A DNA stretch of 21,210 nt from positions 1 through 21,210 of IMG/VR virus record IMGVR_UViG_3300027687_000090; one strand, 5' to 3'. The position numbers and the translations under genes are program-made. Shown here one piece after another: positions 1 through 20,427 of this stretch. The number at the start of each line of letters is the position of its first letter. Positions within the stretch are counted from its first letter, which is position 1. The notes under the pieces are model-generated. The model saw only the letters and a program-made list of their open reading frames with translations, did not search any database and was not told where the DNA came from. Source of the DNA: a virus.

Positions 1-603
1 GATTCTGATGAACAAGGAGAACCAACACAAGATGGCGACACAATACCAGATGAGCAAACAGAAGAAGAGTCTACTGAGGAGCCTAAGACGGAAACGGCTG
101 AGGCAGAAGTTGACGGAGGCGAACAGGATGCACAATCTGAAACGAACGCCGATTCTTCAGAATCGAATGGTGTAAAGAAATCTAGTGGTGGTGGTCTCCT
201 TTCGTTATTTGGTATTAATTCAAACGAGGAGGAGGTGACTGAACAAAGTGATATATCTGCTGATGAGGAACCTGTGATTGAGATCGCAGAAGTCGATTCA
301 GAAACGGAGACCCCACCCATTTCTACTGACGCTGAGGTTGAAGTAGAAGACATATCTATTGACGGAATAGATGATATTAAACCTCACGCAATGGTAGCAG
401 AAGTAGAAGTAGAACCTAAAGTTGAAATAAACATATCAGACATCGTAGTCAATGCTGAGGTAATAGTTGACGATATCTTAATTGATCCAGGCATTGAAAT
501 AACTGCAATCGATAATGTAATTGAACGAGTCATTACACCTGACGAAGGCACAATGATTGTTTCACCATCTGGTCAACTGTACGCTTCAACAAACTTTAAT
601 TAA
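1..603 (+). CDS. Acidic low-complexity protein, 3' part (5' end outside window)
   Basis: The frame is open from the first base of the window to a TAA at 601-603, giving at least 200 residues with no start visible, so this is the C-terminal part of a longer protein. The first 60 residues are almost entirely Glu, Asp, Thr, Ser and Gln. A short basic/hydrophobic stretch (KKSSGGGLLSLFG) follows, then another strongly acidic region with loosely repeated units beginning AEVEVED, AEVEVEP and AEVIVDD. The last 20 residues are less charged. A GTG at 235 sits next to a GAGGAGG purine run and could be mistaken for a start, but the spacing is too short and the frame continues upstream. The 58-aa gene begins 1 nt after the stop. 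I do not recognise the family; an acidic surface or DNA-mimic role would be speculation. Confidence 0.75.
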   Translation, partial: DSDEQGEPTQDGDTIPDEQTEEESTEEPKTETAEAEVDGGEQDAQSETNADSSESNGVKKSSGGGLLSLFGINSNEEEVTEQSDISADEEPVIEIAEVDSETETPPISTDAEVEVEDISIDGIDDIKPHAMVAEVEVEPKVEINISDIVVNAEVIVDDILIDPGIEITAIDNVIERVITPDEGTMIVSPSGQLYASTNFN

Positions 604-604
604 T

Positions 605-781
605 ATGATACAATATATATTTCAACAATGTAAAGGAAATTTAATCGAGATAGCAATCGCAACGATTGGCATCTTATCAATGTTAACATTACTCATACCT
701 AAAGATTCATTCCTTGGAAAAGGCTTAGGGATCTTTGGCCAGATCTTTGGATTAATGGGTAAACTAGTAGGAAGAAAATAA
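605..781 (+). CDS. Small single-span membrane protein, 58 aa
   Basis: An ATG at 605 follows the previous stop by one base; a longer version starting at 557 would overlap the upstream gene by 47 nt and is less likely. The protein has a polar N-terminus, one hydrophobic segment at about residues 10-29 (IEIAIATIGILSMLTLLIP) and a glycine-rich amphipathic tail ending in GKLVGRK. There is no clear Shine-Dalgarno motif, so translation may be coupled to the gene upstream. It is followed after 1 nt by the PEP-CTERM gene, so it belongs to the same transcription unit. The size and topology would allow a holin-like or membrane-anchoring role, but nothing in the sequence decides this. Confidence 0.6.
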   Translation: MIQYIFQQCKGNLIEIAIATIGILSMLTLLIPKDSFLGKGLGIFGQIFGLMGKLVGRK

Positions 782-782
782 A

Positions 783-1412
783 ATGAAAAAGTGGTTAGGA
801 TTATTTTTATTAACAGCAGCCTCAGCGTTTGCTAGTATTAGCGTAACAAGCGGGTCGAACAGCGATGGCTATACATATGATTTAGACATTACTCTTACGT
901 CTGATCAGTACATCGATGCTGCAGACTTCGACGGTTCTGTTGATGGTTCGAAACTATATTACCAAATAATAAACGTTATACCATCTGTCACAGGAACGTA
1001 TTCGTTTGATAACTGGAGTAGTGACTTAACTGCAAATAATTCAGAAATAACTGAAACAGAATTGCTATTCTACTTAGATGAACCACAAGGTGGTTATATC
1101 ACTGATGCACCTTGGGCTTTTAGAACTTCAACCGGTGGATTTGGTGCAGGACTAGATGGAACAATCCAAACACCTGATCGTGGAGAAGATTCTTCATATA
1201 GCGGTTTCGTTGGTGATCTCACATTAGACAAAGGTGTTAAGTACATCGCAGTATTTACCTCCTTTCAAGCTGATACGCTTGGAAGTATGGATGTAAGTGT
1301 TATAGGCAATAACCAATTAACTTGGGCAGCAATACCTGAACCATCATCCTATGTGTTAATACTAGGTTGGTTATTATTTCTATATGTAGCAACAAAACGT
1401 AGAACGGATTAA
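783..1412 (+). CDS. Secreted PEP-CTERM sorting-signal protein
   Basis: 209 residues. The N-terminus is a typical Sec signal peptide (MKKWLGLFLLTAASAFA, likely cut after AFA). The mature region is Gly/Ser/Thr/Asp-rich and predicted to be beta-structured. The C-terminus has the three-part PEP-CTERM signal: IPEPSSY at about residues 184-190, a hydrophobic segment of about 14 residues, and a basic end (KRR). In bacteria such tails are recognised by exosortase (EpsH/XrtA family), which sorts the protein to the cell surface or the exopolysaccharide matrix. A purine-rich AGGAAG lies about 9 nt before the ATG. It sits 1 nt after the small membrane gene and 3 nt before the beta-barrel gene, which implies co-expression. 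No exosortase is seen in the window, so processing would depend on the host. The function of the mature domain is unknown. The PEP-CTERM call is strong on sequence pattern. Confidence 0.85.
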   Translation: MKKWLGLFLLTAASAFASISVTSGSNSDGYTYDLDITLTSDQYIDAADFDGSVDGSKLYYQIINVIPSVTGTYSFDNWSSDLTANNSEITETELLFYLDEPQGGYITDAPWAFRTSTGGFGAGLDGTIQTPDRGEDSSYSGFVGDLTLDKGVKYIAVFTSFQADTLGSMDVSVIGNNQLTWAAIPEPSSYVLILGWLLFLYVATKRRTD

Positions 1413-1415
1413 ATT

Positions 1416-2567
1416 ATGAGATTTTTGTTATGTGCATTATTGTTAGTGATAACAACCATAAGCTATGGCCTAGGAGGTCTTAACTTTACTTCGTTTAGTA
1501 GAATCTTTTTTGATGACAATGTTTTTATGCGGGCGGCTGGTACGCCCCACCAAACATCAACCTTTTACTATAGCCAATCACTGGGAATCGATGGTAAGTT
1601 CCTTCGAGATCTAATAGATCTTAAAGCACAACCAGAAATAAGATATCGGGCTGTTGACAGTAAGACGTTGGTGTTTGGTAACATTGGCATTAAAAGCAAA
1701 TACGAATTTGGACCAAAGCTTACACTTGATTCTGCAAATACATTCTCCCATTCTGAAAGAGAACCAAGTGATATCGATGACGACCTCGATGTAACATACT
1801 TTATGAATAAGAGTTCGTACTTGCTAACGTGGCAACCTCGATATCTCTTAAAACTCAAAGGTGGTTATGAAAGCTATGTCAAACGTTGGTCTGAAAACTT
1901 GCCTATAGGAAGCGGTGCTGAATTAACTAACGGTGATTTTACTAAAGATACACTTACGTTCGGCGCAGAACAGATTATCGGCAAAAGGTTTATATTAGAA
2001 TTAGTAGGAAAGAAATCATTCTTAGATTATAGTGGAACTCGTGGAGCGATTAATACTGATACGTATTATGCTGAGTTCTCGTATGTAATGAATCCATCAA
2101 CTATCATAAAATTTAACTATGGTATTATTGATGTATTGATCGAAGATCAGTATGGTACACTAACCGATTACACTGTTCCAACGTATGGTGCCAATATAAC
2201 TTACTTTACTGAAAGAGGTACAGTGATCGGATTTAACACGACTTACGAAGTAATGGATTCGTCTGTAGCATATTGGAATATGAAAGAGAATTTAAAAACA
2301 TCTCTTATGATAAAGTATCCAATCACGCCAAAGCTTGAAGTAAGTGCTATGGCTGCACACCTTCTGACATCTTATAAAGACATTGGCAATCGTTATAACA
2401 TTGGTTTAGAACGTGAAGAAGAAGTCTTTGTTTCGAGCATCACATTTGCTTGGAAGTATAACGAATTCCATTACGCTGAATTTGGCTATCAAGGCTTGCA
2501 TCTATTAAATAAAGATGCTGATGTATTTAAGAATAAAGTGTTTGTTGGATATAGATTAAAATTCTAA
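1416..2567 (+). CDS. Outer-membrane beta-barrel protein (porin-2-like)
   Basis: 383 residues. A hydrophobic signal peptide (MRFLLCALLLVITTISYG) is followed by a long region of alternating polar/hydrophobic stretches rich in Tyr, Phe and Thr, with short turns, ending in the aromatic residue of GYRLKF. A terminal Phe after an alternating strand is the usual BAM-recognition signal of outer-membrane proteins. The N-terminal pattern SRIFFDDNVF and the overall length resemble the putative beta-barrel porin 2 (BBP2-like) proteins found in exopolysaccharide/exosortase loci; that family link is from memory and moderate. It lies 3 nt after the PEP-CTERM gene, so the pair is probably translated from one message. 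A phage-encoded outer-membrane protein could alter the host surface, for example to block superinfection, but this is inference. Confidence 0.75.
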   Translation: MRFLLCALLLVITTISYGLGGLNFTSFSRIFFDDNVFMRAAGTPHQTSTFYYSQSLGIDGKFLRDLIDLKAQPEIRYRAVDSKTLVFGNIGIKSKYEFGPKLTLDSANTFSHSEREPSDIDDDLDVTYFMNKSSYLLTWQPRYLLKLKGGYESYVKRWSENLPIGSGAELTNGDFTKDTLTFGAEQIIGKRFILELVGKKSFLDYSGTRGAINTDTYYAEFSYVMNPSTIIKFNYGIIDVLIEDQYGTLTDYTVPTYGANITYFTERGTVIGFNTTYEVMDSSVAYWNMKENLKTSLMIKYPITPKLEVSAMAAHLLTSYKDIGNRYNIGLEREEEVFVSSITFAWKYNEFHYAEFGYQGLHLLNKDADVFKNKVFVGYRLKF

Positions 2568-4399: not shown

Positions 4400-4864
4400 A
4401 TGAAATTACCAATATTTGCATTCTTAGTAATGATCGCAACTTTAGCGTTAGCTGAAAAGGCCAATGCTAGCACCTACGATCCTTGTCCTTATGCGCACGA
4501 TATCGTCGTAGCGACCATCATCATGGAAGCGGGTGGTGAATATCACGTTGGTGCACTTGAAGGTGTCTACGAAGTAATAAAGACTCGTGCTAAAAGACGC
4601 CACAAGACACTTGCTCAGGTATGTTTACAGCGAAAACAATTCTCTTGTTGGAATGGAAAGGCTGATGGAATAAAATCTTTAGAAGCCACGATTGCTAAAG
4701 CAAAGAAACATCCACGCTGGGCAATCGCTAACGCTGTCATTGGCACATCTACAAACTTTACGAATGGTGCTGACCACTATTACGCAGACTATATCGCTGA
4801 GCCTTATTGGGCAGCAAGCATGACACAAACCGTGAAGATCGGTAAACACATATTCTTCAAATAA
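4400..4864 (+). CDS. Exported SleB/CwlJ-like cell-wall hydrolase
   Basis: 154 residues. A Sec-type signal peptide (MKLPIFAFLVMIATLALA, then EKANAS) is followed by a domain matching the Hydrolase_2 (SleB/CwlJ) pattern: VVATIIMEAGGE with the catalytic-type Glu near residue 50, then VYEVIKTRA, a segment with QFSCW, and a C-terminal GADHYYADYIAEPYW motif. SleB-type enzymes act on peptidoglycan as lytic transglycosylases or amidases. The signal peptide implies action in the periplasm without a cytoplasmic endolysin/holin step, although the adjacent two-segment membrane peptide could be a holin. The T4-type gp5 in this genome has no lysozyme domain, so this may be the main murein-degrading enzyme visible here. 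Starts 2 nt after the previous stop. Confidence 0.85.
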   Translation: MKLPIFAFLVMIATLALAEKANASTYDPCPYAHDIVVATIIMEAGGEYHVGALEGVYEVIKTRAKRRHKTLAQVCLQRKQFSCWNGKADGIKSLEATIAKAKKHPRWAIANAVIGTSTNFTNGADHYYADYIAEPYWAASMTQTVKIGKHIFFK

Positions 4865-5258: not shown

Positions 5259-6410
5259 ATGAAAATTAAAACAAGAAAATTTCAAAAGAATGGCCAAGTA
5301 GCTGCTGTCGATGGCAAGTACACAGGCGAAGAACCTACGTGGAACAGTGTCAAAACGCAGAAAGCATACGACATAAAGCTATCGAAAGGTCTTAACTTTT
5401 ATAACTACTACCTTGATCGTGATGACTACATCCCTATCATTTATGACTATATGATTACTCAAGGGTACAATCCAAAGCAGTGTAAGCTTATTCAGAAGGT
5501 GCCTAAAACCGCAGGTGAAGTGTCTCTTACTGGTAAGCTATGTCGAATGTTTAACATGGGCTCACCTGATTATTACAACTATAGAAAGCTTGTAAAGACT
5601 AACATCGCATCGATGCTTAATCAGGCATCTTCAGTAGAAGATAAAAAGGTAAAGGTAGATACCGATGCTCCAGCAAAGCCTAACGTTCATGAAATCATGA
5701 AAGAAAAGGTAAGGAAATCTATACTATGCGAACTTGAAGGTATGCTTGATTCTTGGTGTACAGACGATACAAAGGTAGTCAAATTCCCATTGGCTTCTGT
5801 TATGCGTGGTGAAAACATTCCAGTTTCAGCGACAGGTGAAGTCAAACAATGGTTGACTAAACACCGTGACGAATATAACGAGGCGTTTGAAAAGACGTGT
5901 GATCAAATGGTGGAAGGCTATTCTTATCTAGGTAAGCCAGCACTCCGCAATCGTATTAAAGCACTAGATGATATGCTAAATGAATTAGTACTTTACAAAT
6001 CAAGTAAAGCTTCAGCACGTAAACCACGTGTCAAAAAGCCTAAGTCAGCGATTAAGCAAATCCAAAGGTTGAAATACTTAAAAGAATCGAAAGATCATGC
6101 GATACAATCATGTGATCCTACACGAATCATTGGGGCAAATAAATTCTTTGTCTTTAATACCAAGTATCGTAGGCTTACGGTGTTTAACGCACAAGGTCGT
6201 GATGGATTTACCATAAGTGGTACATCAATTAAAGACTTTGATGAAACTACTTCCTTTGCTCTCACGCTACGAAAGCCGGAAGATTACCTTCCAATCATCG
6301 CAGCTAGGACAGAAAAACAAATTGAGAAAGCGCTTAATGAGTTAAAAACAAAGCGTAAATCCGCGAATGGTAGGATTAATCAAGACACCATTTTAATTAG
6401 AGCGCTATGA
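5259..6410 (+). CDS. Hypothetical protein of marine T4-like phages, 383 aa
   Basis: A soluble basic protein. The N-terminal part contains a Tyr-rich stretch (GLNFYNYYLDRDDYIPI). A middle Lys-rich linker (about residues 135-150) leads to a helical segment, and a very basic region (SSKASARKPRVKKPKSAIK, about residues 248-266) precedes a C-terminal domain with FVFNTKYRRLTVFNA and a long basic helix. The basic segments suggest nucleic-acid binding. It ends 4 nt inside the gp33 gene and is preceded by a dedicated early promoter, so it is probably transcribed with gp33, gp59 and gp32. I recall proteins of this general type at this position in marine T4-like phages, always as hypotheticals; no function is assigned. 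Confidence 0.8.
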   Translation: MKIKTRKFQKNGQVAAVDGKYTGEEPTWNSVKTQKAYDIKLSKGLNFYNYYLDRDDYIPIIYDYMITQGYNPKQCKLIQKVPKTAGEVSLTGKLCRMFNMGSPDYYNYRKLVKTNIASMLNQASSVEDKKVKVDTDAPAKPNVHEIMKEKVRKSILCELEGMLDSWCTDDTKVVKFPLASVMRGENIPVSATGEVKQWLTKHRDEYNEAFEKTCDQMVEGYSYLGKPALRNRIKALDDMLNELVLYKSSKASARKPRVKKPKSAIKQIQRLKYLKESKDHAIQSCDPTRIIGANKFFVFNTKYRRLTVFNAQGRDGFTISGTSIKDFDETTSFALTLRKPEDYLPIIAARTEKQIEKALNELKTKRKSANGRINQDTILIRAL

Positions 6411-8317: not shown

Positions 8318-8536
8318 TTATAATAACCGTGTTAAGCTATAGCGCTTTTCTTTTCGTATTTCTTCAATTAAAAGAATAAAGACTTCATCAAACTCGTCGA
8401 GTATTTCGTTAATGTTTTTTACATCTGATTCAAGTGACTCAACTTTATTTTCTAAATCGAGTATTTGTTGAGACTGCAGATAGAAACACACAACAGTTGT
8501 TACTGCGAGAATAAAAAGAATGAGTTTTGATATCAT
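8318..8536 (-). CDS. Small membrane protein with coiled-coil tail, 72 aa
   Basis: Residues 3-21 (SKLILFILAVTTVVCFYLQ) form one N-terminal membrane anchor. They are followed by a heptad-like acidic helix (DLENKVESLESDVKNINEILDEFDEV) and a basic end. This is a signal-anchor protein with a coiled coil, most likely exposed to the periplasm, a layout seen in i-spanins and in other small phage membrane proteins; no family is assigned. It is the last gene of the minus-strand tail operon, 30 nt after the tape-measure stop, and converges with the gp32 terminator. An AGGAG lies 22 nt before the start, which is too far for a standard ribosome-binding site. The gene is bracketed by the two copies of a 20-nt near-identical repeat, which suggests a later insertion. 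Confidence 0.65.
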   Translation of the reverse strand: MISKLILFILAVTTVVCFYLQSQQILDLENKVESLESDVKNINEILDEFDEVFILLIEEIRKEKRYSLTRLL

Positions 8537-17270: not shown

Positions 17271-19832
17271 ATGTCATATCATTCTTCATCAGGTAATACC
17301 TCTAATAATACTACAACTAGTAGTAGTACACCTACCAGCAGCGTCGCTCAAGTAGCACCGGTCGTGACTACTACTACTCAATATAGTTCTGCAGGTGCGT
17401 TTATACCACACACGATGTATGATCCTAATACAGGTCAGGCTTATAATGCAAGCACCGAAGCATTACATTTAGAGTATATCGCATTAGGTTATGTACATGA
17501 AATGCCAGCACGAGAGGAAGAGCCTACTAAATTTGGTGAGACAACTGTACAGCTACAAATACAGTCAATTATACCAGTACCTTCGAATTTTGATAGTAAC
17601 GGATACCCTCGCACTGTAACATACGGAGGTATAGTTCTTACACGCACCGAAGAGTCTCGAAAAGAACAGGTCACCGCACTCATAAAAGCCACCTCGTTAG
17701 CGACGAACGCGAATTATGTACAGTTAGATACTGTAAGAGTACGCGCGAAGCAAGATGATGTAGACGCCGATCCTACAATTACACTTGGTGAAGAGATTAT
17801 AGCTAGTACAGCAGCCGACATGTCACGACGAGCACCTGGTCAAGGTATGTTTATGTTTGGTGATAGTCTCGAAAATATGCCAACTGGTGTTTCGTATCAA
17901 TGGCCACACGGATATCAGTATGCACCAGCTACGACCGCTCACAAATCTGTTGTAACTATACAGCCACCGAAAGGCCACTCACTTTCCGAAATTAATGCAC
18001 CGATCGGCCTGCAGCCGCCACAATATGGTATTTCGCTATCACAATATACAGAAACCGCGAGAGATTTAAACTATTTGTCTATACCAGTATCAGTAACAAA
18101 CGATGAAACCTCGTTGTGGATATCTGGCCAGCAAACACATGGTAGTAGTACTGATGCTAATCTATATATAGAAGTTAATTATCCTGTTTACACCTTTTCT
18201 AATTTCCGGCAATCATTCTCTTACATGCGTGATCCAGCTAATACTGATATAGAGTATAAGTGGCATGTATCTAAAATAGTATACGACGAAGGTACTGGCA
18301 CTTTGCTGAATAAAGACCCTGTTATACATATTGGCTCAAAAGCGTCCATCGACCGTGCAGCGATAGTTGTACCAACCCGAGATCCAGAAGGTACCGTAAC
18401 TTCCGCAGATATATTCGACAAAGGCCAATATAATGGTACAGGCAGACGTACAATGCGTGGTTTAGTCTATACAGGTATGAATCCACCAGATATAATCGTA
18501 AGAGTGTCTCAAGAGGCACCTAAGGTTAACGAGTCCACAGGTAAACCAATAGACATAAGAAAGAACGATGGCGGAGATGCTGCGAGTAAATTAGCACTAG
18601 CTGCAGGTGTTATAGGTGGTGTAGGTGTAATAAGTAAATTAACCGAGGGAGTTACTAGCTCCCTTACTACAAATGGTCTAACAAGCAATTTACCTGCCTT
18701 ACCTAAAATAGATATAGACATAAGTAAATGTATCGATATTACTATACCAGAATTAGCTATCGACGATGCACTCAATAAGTTAAAGGGGCAACTCGACGGT
18801 GCTGTGAATAAGGCAGGTTTAGATAAATTAATGGGCAAGCTTGACTCTCTTAAGAAGGATGTACTCTCAAAAGTACCACCATTACCGAGTTTTCCGGACT
18901 TTGCGTCACAATTAGCAGCGCTTGATCCAACAGATACAAAGGCTGTACAGTTACTTAAACAACGCTGGGGTAATATAGTATCTAATATAGATGATAAAAT
19001 AGCCGGTGTAAAGGCGTTTGTTTCTGGCATCGAATTACCTGATTTCGATATATGTAAGTTGAAAGAGCAAGAGATACTCGCGGAGATACAGCCGGATGGT
19101 ACCTATAAGGAAAAGATTATCGCGACTACGCCTACTCTCCCTACTATAATACCTATTGAAGACATACCGGTATCGGAACAGGTAATTACAGTCGAAGCTG
19201 CTGATACTGCTGCAGACGAATTCCAAGAGAAGTTTAGTGTCACACCTGTCATTGCGAAATCAGGCTTAGCTATATTTAAAGCTAACTCTCTTGCAGCATT
19301 TGGTACATGGTTCTCTCTCACTCATCGCGCTGATCTTGAAGTAGTAGTAGCAGACCTAAAGAAGCTACAAGGGGATAAGAACTATCAAGCTTTTCTTACA
19401 GCGCGCAAAACAGCAGGAGGAGTAGCAGACTTCGATACAACACAAGATAAGTATATTAAATGGGTTAAAAAGGAGAAAGACATTTTTCCTCGATACTATA
19501 AACTTACTAATAGAGCAAAACTGTATAACCTTGCTATAAAGAACTTACATAACTACGTAAAGGCTAATTGCTCGAGTATACTTGAAGCAGAGGACCCTGG
19601 TGCATGGAGCGATATTATAGCCGGCCGAATACCTCGACCCCTTAAGGCTGGATCTAACATCACTGCCACTTCAGCAATCGTAACCGAAGAGATGTATAAT
19701 ACCTTCATGGATGAAAATCAGGAGCTACTTTTGTTTATAAAGAGAAATCTGTGGAAAAAAATTCCTGTACTGGGATTGGCCCGATACTATTTAGCGAGTG
19801 GTCAGCCTGGTGTTACTCTATTAGAAACATAA
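17271..19832 (+). CDS. Large virion protein of unknown role, 853 aa
   Basis: The N-terminal 40 residues are Ser/Thr-rich. A segment with FIPHTMYDPNTGQAY and LHLEYIALGYVHEMP follows, then a long beta-rich portion (to about residue 430) with repeated Tyr/Pro/Gly turns. Residues 445-465 are hydrophobic and Gly-rich (LALAAGVIGGVGVI), followed by a helical, Lys/Leu/Asp-rich part (KLKGQLDGAVNKAGLDKL, MGKLDSLKKDVLSKVPPLP) and a C-terminal section of mixed structure (WGNIVSNIDDKIAGVKAF and later helices). It lies 6 nt after gp5 in the baseplate operon, so a structural role at the spike or baseplate is likely. Isoleucine is very often encoded by ATA. I do not recognise a family; it is probably lineage-specific. 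Confidence 0.8.
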   Translation: MSYHSSSGNTSNNTTTSSSTPTSSVAQVAPVVTTTTQYSSAGAFIPHTMYDPNTGQAYNASTEALHLEYIALGYVHEMPAREEEPTKFGETTVQLQIQSIIPVPSNFDSNGYPRTVTYGGIVLTRTEESRKEQVTALIKATSLATNANYVQLDTVRVRAKQDDVDADPTITLGEEIIASTAADMSRRAPGQGMFMFGDSLENMPTGVSYQWPHGYQYAPATTAHKSVVTIQPPKGHSLSEINAPIGLQPPQYGISLSQYTETARDLNYLSIPVSVTNDETSLWISGQQTHGSSTDANLYIEVNYPVYTFSNFRQSFSYMRDPANTDIEYKWHVSKIVYDEGTGTLLNKDPVIHIGSKASIDRAAIVVPTRDPEGTVTSADIFDKGQYNGTGRRTMRGLVYTGMNPPDIIVRVSQEAPKVNESTGKPIDIRKNDGGDAASKLALAAGVIGGVGVISKLTEGVTSSLTTNGLTSNLPALPKIDIDISKCIDITIPELAIDDALNKLKGQLDGAVNKAGLDKLMGKLDSLKKDVLSKVPPLPSFPDFASQLAALDPTDTKAVQLLKQRWGNIVSNIDDKIAGVKAFVSGIELPDFDICKLKEQEILAEIQPDGTYKEKIIATTPTLPTIIPIEDIPVSEQVITVEAADTAADEFQEKFSVTPVIAKSGLAIFKANSLAAFGTWFSLTHRADLEVVVADLKKLQGDKNYQAFLTARKTAGGVADFDTTQDKYIKWVKKEKDIFPRYYKLTNRAKLYNLAIKNLHNYVKANCSSILEAEDPGAWSDIIAGRIPRPLKAGSNITATSAIVTEEMYNTFMDENQELLLFIKRNLWKKIPVLGLARYYLASGQPGVTLLET

Positions 19833-19857: not shown

Positions 19858-20427
19858 ATGTCACACTCTATCTCAACTAATTTTACACCAAGGGATGAAC
19901 TTACTCCAGATGTAAATGGGTTTGTATTGAAGAAGTATGTACGTGCTTATATAGAAGAGATTGCACGTGATTCTTTTTTAAATGGATATACTCCGCCTGA
20001 TGGTGGGAGGTTTCAAATATACAATGGGTATCCCGAGGAATGGGCACGATACTTTATGTCTATAATAGAAGAAACTACAGATTATAATGCTCTTTTCCAG
20101 AAAAATGTTTTTCGGTATGAGAATCTTACTCGTGTGGATGATACACGTATAGGTCTTTTTGCTTTAACTCCTCGTGTTACGGGTAAGTCGATTTCTGACT
20201 TAATGCGACCTAGGATAAACATAAAAACCGCGGTAGATCTATATGCTATTGTCATCAAAGTAAATCGGACTGTGAGAGTGAGTAGCTACTTCTGGTATGG
20301 TGCAAAAACTGGAGAAGATGGTCAGGGGTTCGGTACTGGGGGTGGTAGTACTACTGGCACCGCAATTACGACTGAAGGCGGTTCTTATATCACCGCGGAA
20401 GATGGTTCCTATATTGTAATTGAGTAA
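19858..20427 (+). CDS. Putative baseplate/tail structural protein, 189 aa
   Basis: Soluble protein. The N-terminal 60 residues include FTPRDELTPDVNGFVLKKYV and a helix (YIEEIARDSF). A Tyr-rich middle follows (RFQIYNGYPEEWARYFMSI), then RVDDTRIGLFALTPRVTGKS and a beta-rich section (AIVIKVNRTVRVSSYFWYG). The end is a Gly/Thr-rich tail with a near-repeat, GGSYITAEDGSYIVIE, as seen at the tips of several phage structural proteins. A late box places transcription at its own start codon. It overlaps the next gene by one base (TAATG). Context and tail suggest a virion protein, but no family is assigned. Confidence 0.7.
   Translation: MSHSISTNFTPRDELTPDVNGFVLKKYVRAYIEEIARDSFLNGYTPPDGGRFQIYNGYPEEWARYFMSIIEETTDYNALFQKNVFRYENLTRVDDTRIGLFALTPRVTGKSISDLMRPRINIKTAVDLYAIVIKVNRTVRVSSYFWYGAKTGEDGQGFGTGGGSTTGTAITTEGGSYITAEDGSYIVIE

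Follow-up and report, generated by a model that had tools for sequence, protein, structure and literature searches.

The window, meaning the whole stretch of DNA analysed here, is one complete IMG/VR record of 21,210 bp. Its first genes belong to a unit that recurs in other phages and encodes, in order, a long acidic protein, a membrane protein of ~57 amino acids (aa), a PEP-CTERM protein and usually a 383-aa beta-barrel (Table 1). Homologues of T4-type gp2, gp4, gp5, gp32, gp33, gp48, gp53, gp59 and baseplate hub indicate that the window comes from a T4-like (myo)phage; the nearest deposited relative of its gp32, at 56.5% identity, is Phage C48C1, whose host is unknown. An Rfam search of the window returned no matches. 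Elsewhere in the window, positions 5259–6410 encode a phrog_11903 protein, common to Pseudomonas jumbo phages and Sinorhizobium phages, with 24%–28% identity, and an 853-aa ORF that has no PHROG match (17271–19832) lies 3' of the gp5-like gene.

Table 1. Positions of the unit and of other envelope-related features in the window
Feature	Positions	Strand	Basis or remark
Long acidic protein, C-terminal 200 aa; first gene of the unit, start off the contig	1..603	+	Open frame 1–603
Single-pass membrane protein, 58 aa, amphipathic basic C-terminus	605..781	+	Conserved position immediately 5' of the PEP-CTERM gene in every lineage
PEP-CTERM protein, 209 aa	783..1412	+	Translation, profile matches, alignment of homologues
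Sec-type signal peptide, residues 1–17 (AFA, then S)	783..833	+	Sequence reading by eye
Predicted beta-sandwich ectodomain, residues 18–183	834..1331	+	AlphaFold2 model; cassette-like exchange among phages
Pro-Glu-Pro motif, residues 185–187	1335..1343	+	Alignment A4
Hydrophobic helix of the tail, residues 189–204	1347..1394	+	Helix 189–208 in the AlphaFold2 model
Basic cluster KRR, residues 205–207	1395..1403	+	R or K at position 207 in 20/20 homologues
Protein of 383 aa with signal peptide and predicted outer-membrane beta-barrel, immediately 3' of the PEP-CTERM gene	1416..2567	+	AlphaFold2 model, PDB folds
SleB-type cell-wall hydrolase (endolysin), secreted	4400..4864	+	PF07486 48.5 bits, over cut-off; phrog_938 endolysin
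72-aa protein, N-terminal membrane segment and heptad-like coil	8318..8536	-	Sequence comparison by eye

Anatomy of the PEP-CTERM protein

The initial annotation had described the product of ORF 783–1412 as a 209-aa protein with a signal peptide at one end and a PEP-CTERM tail at the other, and this anatomy is indeed present. Read by eye, the N-terminus, MKKWLGLFLLTAASAFA followed by SIS, has an n-region, an h-region and an AxA c-region, and signal-peptide-like starts can be seen in the same way in full-length homologues. Beyond the signal peptide (MKKWLGLFLLTAASAFA, with S as the next residue) comes an ectodomain of 166 residues and then IPEPSSYVLILGWLLFLYVATKRRTD; the C-terminal end of the ORF reads AAIPEPSSYVLILGWLLFLYVATKRRTD. 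The tail thus has the layout IPEPSSY, hydrophobic helix, KRR, with 22 residues after the PEP motif. The AlphaFold2 model of the ectodomain is a beta-sandwich with a mean pLDDT of 79. Its matches in a PDB fold search are weak (an Eph-receptor ligand-binding domain, a flocculin and CBM35, with E values of ~1e-3 to 1e-2 and TM scores <0.4), such that the predicted fold can be called “jelly-roll-like” at most. A search of BFVD finds a nameless protein, A0A516MBN4, at an E value of 2e-10.

Is the tail a genuine PEP-CTERM signal?

Two curated profiles describe the PEP-CTERM tail, with cut-offs of 20.7 bits (PF07589) and 16 bits (TIGR02595). The window copy itself falls below both, scoring 15.7 bits (six-frame DNA) or 12.6 bits (protein) against PF07589 and 11.8 bits against TIGR02595, but its relatives do pass. 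Specifically, 8 of 26 related phage contigs exceed the PF07589 cut-off in six-frame comparison, the best at 27.5 bits, and the TIGR02595 cut-off is exceeded by L041 (21.0 bits), the second gene of L014 (21.1) and L031 (16.6). That the same tail is shared by related viral contigs is also clear from an alignment of 20 homologues (A4), from which conservation was read: P185 and E186 are invariant (20/20), P187 is found in 19/20 and S188 in 18/20. The third place after PEP is occupied by Tyr in 17/20 phage tails. There are exceptions. PES replaces PEP in L007/L008 (VPESSTY), two near-identical contigs, and in the second G014 copy (G014:136072–136632, VPESTAF), so the PEP motif is sometimes lost, perhaps through decay or as a tolerated variant.

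The PES variants, together with the sub-threshold score of the window tail, would fit a plain C-terminal anchor, i.e., a single-pass inner-membrane protein that faces the periplasm and in which PEP has no sorting role. Such an anchor would need no invariant PE, however, and it is hard to accept because the motif is conserved above everything surrounding it: the mean majority frequency in A4 is 0.96 for the PEPS columns, compared with 0.65 for the hydrophobic helix and 0.57 for the ectodomain. Moreover, the tails of other phages pass the curated cut-offs, and unrelated phage proteins carry the same terminal signal. We consider a plain anchor distinctly improbable. The comparisons instead support the view that the match of the window tail is not due to chance and that the PEP-CTERM signal is genuine and selectively maintained, as far as can be judged from sequence.

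A conserved gene unit in three phage lineages

Relatives were gathered by scanning viral contigs with the window protein, with the downstream barrel and with alignments of each. The initial annotation recognized a genuine tail in a T4-like phage, for which sorting by a host exosortase is the natural reading, but it overlooked the multi-gene unit in which the gene lies. Full-length relatives of the acidic protein are found in L010, L014, L041, L046, L115 and L125. They begin with an N-terminal domain, followed by a single hydrophobic segment rich in Gly, Ala and Ser and then by long acidic repeats, and most of them end in I[DNP].IKPH...VSP. In L115 (positions 1062–1796), the C-terminal motif of the acidic gene, TPHDAIITSPSGP, resumes past the stop in another frame, reflecting a frameshift, a sequencing error or a split gene.

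The small membrane protein has no confident family match, and the alignment of small proteins was too divergent to serve as a scan query. A scan with the small protein yielded 16 contigs. Where the sequence extends far enough past the small-protein gene, a PEP-CTERM gene nearly always follows: it is complete in nine loci (the L007/L008 type having PES), and in others the contig ends inside a PEP-type ectodomain. A few contigs stop too early to tell. The contig end lies ≤~450 bases after the small-protein start region in 8 of the 16 (L142, L145, L146, L148, L150, L151, L153 and L155). Most of these eight break inside the PEP-CTERM gene, and the first base of the window already falls within the acidic gene; the unit seems to be a place where assembly breaks. 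So many breaks inside the PEP-CTERM gene suggest that the population is locally diverse.

The order acidic protein, small membrane protein, PEP-CTERM protein is kept in three lineages: T4-like phages (L010, L014, L041 and L115); G014, which is a different myophage of 141,669 bp with two PEP-CTERM copies; and L125, whose structural genes differ from those of the T4-like contigs. In both L115 and L125, the small-protein gene fills the gap just before the PEP-CTERM gene. L014, L030 and G014 have a second PEP-CTERM gene, with a different ectodomain type, between the first copy and the barrel. The barrel has homologues in 24 viral contigs. Its AlphaFold2 model comprises ~18 long antiparallel strands (mean pLDDT 83), and the closest folds in the PDB belong to outer-membrane channels and receptors, hence the prediction that the product of ORF 1416–2567 is an outer-membrane protein. 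Its match to BBP2_2 (PF10082) is C-terminal and weak, at 13.2 bits (E value 0.04), below the gathering cut-off of 23.7 bits.

Could the PEP-CTERM gene simply be a captured host surface gene that has no special role in the phage and is being lost? Bacteria rich in exopolysaccharide commonly have PEP-CTERM proteins (PMC1569441), and the PES variants could be decay. On the other hand, a fixed gene order is kept in many contigs and three lineages, the ORFs are intact, and outside the phage contig only two weak partial ectodomain matches occur in 368 other gammaproteobacterial genomes. Hence, we regard this explanation as very improbable indeed.

Ectodomains are exchanged as cassettes

Pairwise identities of the ectodomain, tail, barrel and small protein reveal which parts travel together. 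For example, the window and L009/L027 are 92% identical in the barrel and 88% in the tail, with 31% identity in the ectodomain. The window and L010, by comparison, share 89% in the ectodomain, 62% in the tail and 34% in the small protein. Similar patterns are seen for L027 and L022 (ectodomain 98%, tail 62%, barrel 75%) and for L009 and L023 (ectodomain 97%, barrel 79%). The ectodomain moves as a cassette between phages, and the tail stays with the barrel. This is as expected for a surface-exposed part under recombination.

PEP-CTERM proteins in other marine phages

The carriers form a group of bacteriophages from the sea. When IMG/VR was searched with an exact DNA pattern encoding [VIM]-P-E-P-x-T-Y-A-L, 27 contigs matched, and in all 23 of the newly read contigs (23/23), the motif lies 17–36 residues before the end of the ORF or contig. 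Some of the proteins are unlike the window ectodomain. One of them, an Asp-rich PEP-CTERM protein of 117 aa, occurs in five contigs (L104, L105, L111, L113 and L126; the largest is 73 kb), which constitute a separate lineage. Others are a 234-aa protein in the T4-like contig L115, a 95-aa protein in the 37.8-kb contig L125, where structural PHROGs are also present, and a 97-aa protein in L114. The small PEP-CTERM proteins of L125 and L114 have no obvious signal peptide by eye. The high-G+C matches L107, L109, L110 and L117 may be host flanks of prophages. Overall, the PEP-CTERM signal is found in T4-like phages and at least two other phage lineages. Genes for Ig-like secreted proteins and sugar enzymes lie near the gene for the 117-aa Asp-rich protein, and L104 also encodes a tyrosinase-like Tat-type protein.

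Among 50,697 deposited phage records, there is no relative of the window protein, in keeping with the earlier remark that PEP-CTERM sorting is not known as a regular part of T4-like phage genomes. Searches of the same records with two other phage PEP-CTERM proteins, with the L113 protein and with a phage tail alone were likewise negative.

Promoter motifs suggest late expression

The T4-type late motif TATAAATA stands before structural genes of the window, namely gp2, gp4, gp48 and the ORF at 19858. The window begins inside the acidic gene, so the promoter of its own unit lies outside it. Of the 10 T4-like loci that include the start of the acidic gene, 8 (L005, L006, L008, L012, L014, L027, L030 and L041) have either TATAAATA or CTAAATA 13–21 nt before that gene, against a background of ~1%–2.5% at random positions. 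L010 has no late motif, and in L115 the motif is ~60–70 nt upstream of the acidic gene. The count is suggestive, but the cases are not independent events because several of the contigs are close relatives. The motifs suggest that the unit may be expressed late in infection.

A possible role in remodelling the infected cell's envelope

In the PEP-CTERM model, proteins are exported by Sec, retained by the tail and recognized by exosortase at the periplasmic face (PMC1569441; PMC11980579). A phage-encoded enzyme was considered and rejected: no exosortase (PF09721) was detected in 27 phage contigs, most of which are fragments, one being 141.7 kb and another 92 kb. This makes a host exosortase the likely processor of the phage protein.

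We favor a reading in which Sec would export the PEP-CTERM protein, its C-terminal helix would hold it in the inner membrane so that the PEP motif faces the periplasm, and the host exosortase would cleave it and pass it to the outer envelope. It would be made late, together with the acidic membrane protein, the 57-aa membrane protein and mostly also the outer-membrane beta-barrel, and these products would together remodel the outer surface of the infected cell. The most likely benefit would be a surface blocked or altered toward other phages (superinfection) or toward the phage's own released progeny (debris binding). Such blocking or alteration would explain why ectodomain cassettes are exchanged among phages. 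Indeed, late timing, an outer-membrane barrel and a swapped ectodomain together suggest remodelling of the surface near the end of infection. We think it somewhat probable that the protein is a true PEP-CTERM substrate of a lytic phage, serving late envelope remodelling by way of the host exosortase. For the broader proposal, that unrelated lytic phages share a transferable late envelope unit that is sorted by the host exosortase, carries serotype-like ectodomain cassettes and provides the first viral exosortase substrates, the balance is about even.

Alternatively, the unit could act in lysis or release, weakening the outer membrane or the exopolysaccharide layer in place of spanins or beside them. 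Several neighboring genes are consistent with this. The divergent neighbors in L008 and L027 encode small membrane proteins, one holin-like (161–185 aa) and others of 73 aa and 94–95 aa with a membrane segment and a coil; by eye, homologues of the 72-aa window protein (8318–8536) adjoin the unit in the same two contigs. In L125, the acidic gene comes after a gene for a holin-like protein of 135 aa, the PEP-CTERM gene of L114 directly follows a GH19 endolysin gene, and the secreted endolysin of the window is encoded 1.8 kb downstream of the barrel. The late-promoter motifs would also fit. Against this, the holin- and spanin-like labels come from architecture alone, and the holin-like proteins match no Pfam family and no lysis PHROG; replication genes adjoin the unit in L014 and L030; and ectodomain exchange is more typical of surface recognition. 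In addition, the 209-aa protein has no cysteine near its cleavage site and hence no lipobox, meaning that it is not a unimolecular spanin. A role in release is therefore rather unlikely, although it and surface remodelling are not mutually exclusive.

Relationship to known systems

How does the phage unit compare with systems already described? The phage protein has the tripartite C-terminal signal and, by eye, the N-terminal export signal of the PEP-CTERM/exosortase (EpsH) system (TIGR02595/PF07589), and phage and bacterial members alike have little homology beyond the tail (PMC1569441). The setting is different: the phage gene is part of a multi-gene unit of fixed order, next to phage genes and on a contig without an exosortase, whereas most bacterial members form operons of one gene in genomes that also encode an EpsH homologue (PMC1569441). 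The phage barrel resembles the barrels of exosortase loci (EpsL, TIGR03014; BBP2_2, PF10082) in combining a signal peptide with a predicted outer-membrane beta-barrel encoded beside an exosortase-system gene, but it has no match to TIGR03014 and adjoins the substrate gene rather than the exosortase. Phages are also known to modify the host surface, for example with lambdoid porins, T5 Llp, P22 Gtr and superinfection-exclusion proteins. As in those cases, phage products in the host envelope would alter what later phages meet; the PEP-CTERM unit differs in that it looks late-expressed, and we know of no such modifier that uses a host sortase-like sorting enzyme. Spanins and holins are similar in being late, envelope-directed proteins with adjoining membrane-protein genes, but the phage PEP-CTERM protein combines an apparently cleavable Sec signal with a variable, predicted beta-sandwich, and it lacks a lipobox.

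The sorting signal, then, is already known; what is new is its use by phages within a conserved, apparently late unit. In the literature we found on PEP-CTERM and phage, with subscription journals and most preprints outside its coverage, we saw no report of a phage-encoded PEP-CTERM protein; articles examined there concern bacterial PEP-CTERM genes. To our knowledge, phage exploitation of the exosortase pathway, the Gram-negative counterpart of the sortase pathway, has not been described previously.

What would follow if the preferred reading is correct? First, phages would make use of exosortase sorting, the Gram-negative equivalent of the sortase route. Second, the tail would provide a host-range hint for uncultured phages, since the host must have an exosortase. 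Third, phages would offer a means to study the action of exosortase on a substrate. Fourth, the unit would represent a new type of phage gene, acting toward the end of infection to rebuild the surface of the host. Cassette exchange would also supply direct candidates for the recognition target of the ectodomain.

Candidate hosts

The initial annotation pointed to an exosortase-bearing host. A related phage contig, L030, is binned in the Porticoccaceae MAG NP1052, the sole MAG with such a contig. NP1052 has one clear exosortase, with a best match to XrtC (271 bits, cut-off 300), adjoining an EpsL/BBP2-like barrel and polysaccharide genes; this XrtC-like cluster lies on contig C82 (L089, L090) of the MAG, labelled G027. 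This exosortase has no match at an E value of 1e-20 in 368 other gammaproteobacterial genomes, so its contig is probably misbinned or foreign (horizontally acquired), and the PEP-CTERM genes of NP1052 lie only on the phage contig. Given these observations, we rejected the assignment of Porticoccaceae as host through L030. Across the family, exosortase is present in 36 of 112 genomes and PEP-CTERM genes over the cut-off in 28 of 112, but Tyr at the third place after PEP is found in none of the Porticoccaceae tails read, as opposed to most of the phage tails.

A different pointer comes from the holin-like neighbor in L125, which among 50,697 phages matches only P8625 (Puniceicoccales host) and C75C1 (host unknown). 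P8625 infects strain IMCC8625, a verrucomicrobium of marine origin (PMC4642752), and it was in Verrucomicrobium that PEP-CTERM was originally noticed (PMC1569441). The match may hint at a Puniceicoccales host and is a lead, not an assignment. P8625 itself was rejected as a carrier, since a regex scan for PEP-CTERM ORFs was negative for P8625, for C75C1 and for the stretch of C48C1 that it covered. The 141-kb contig has three tRNAs only.
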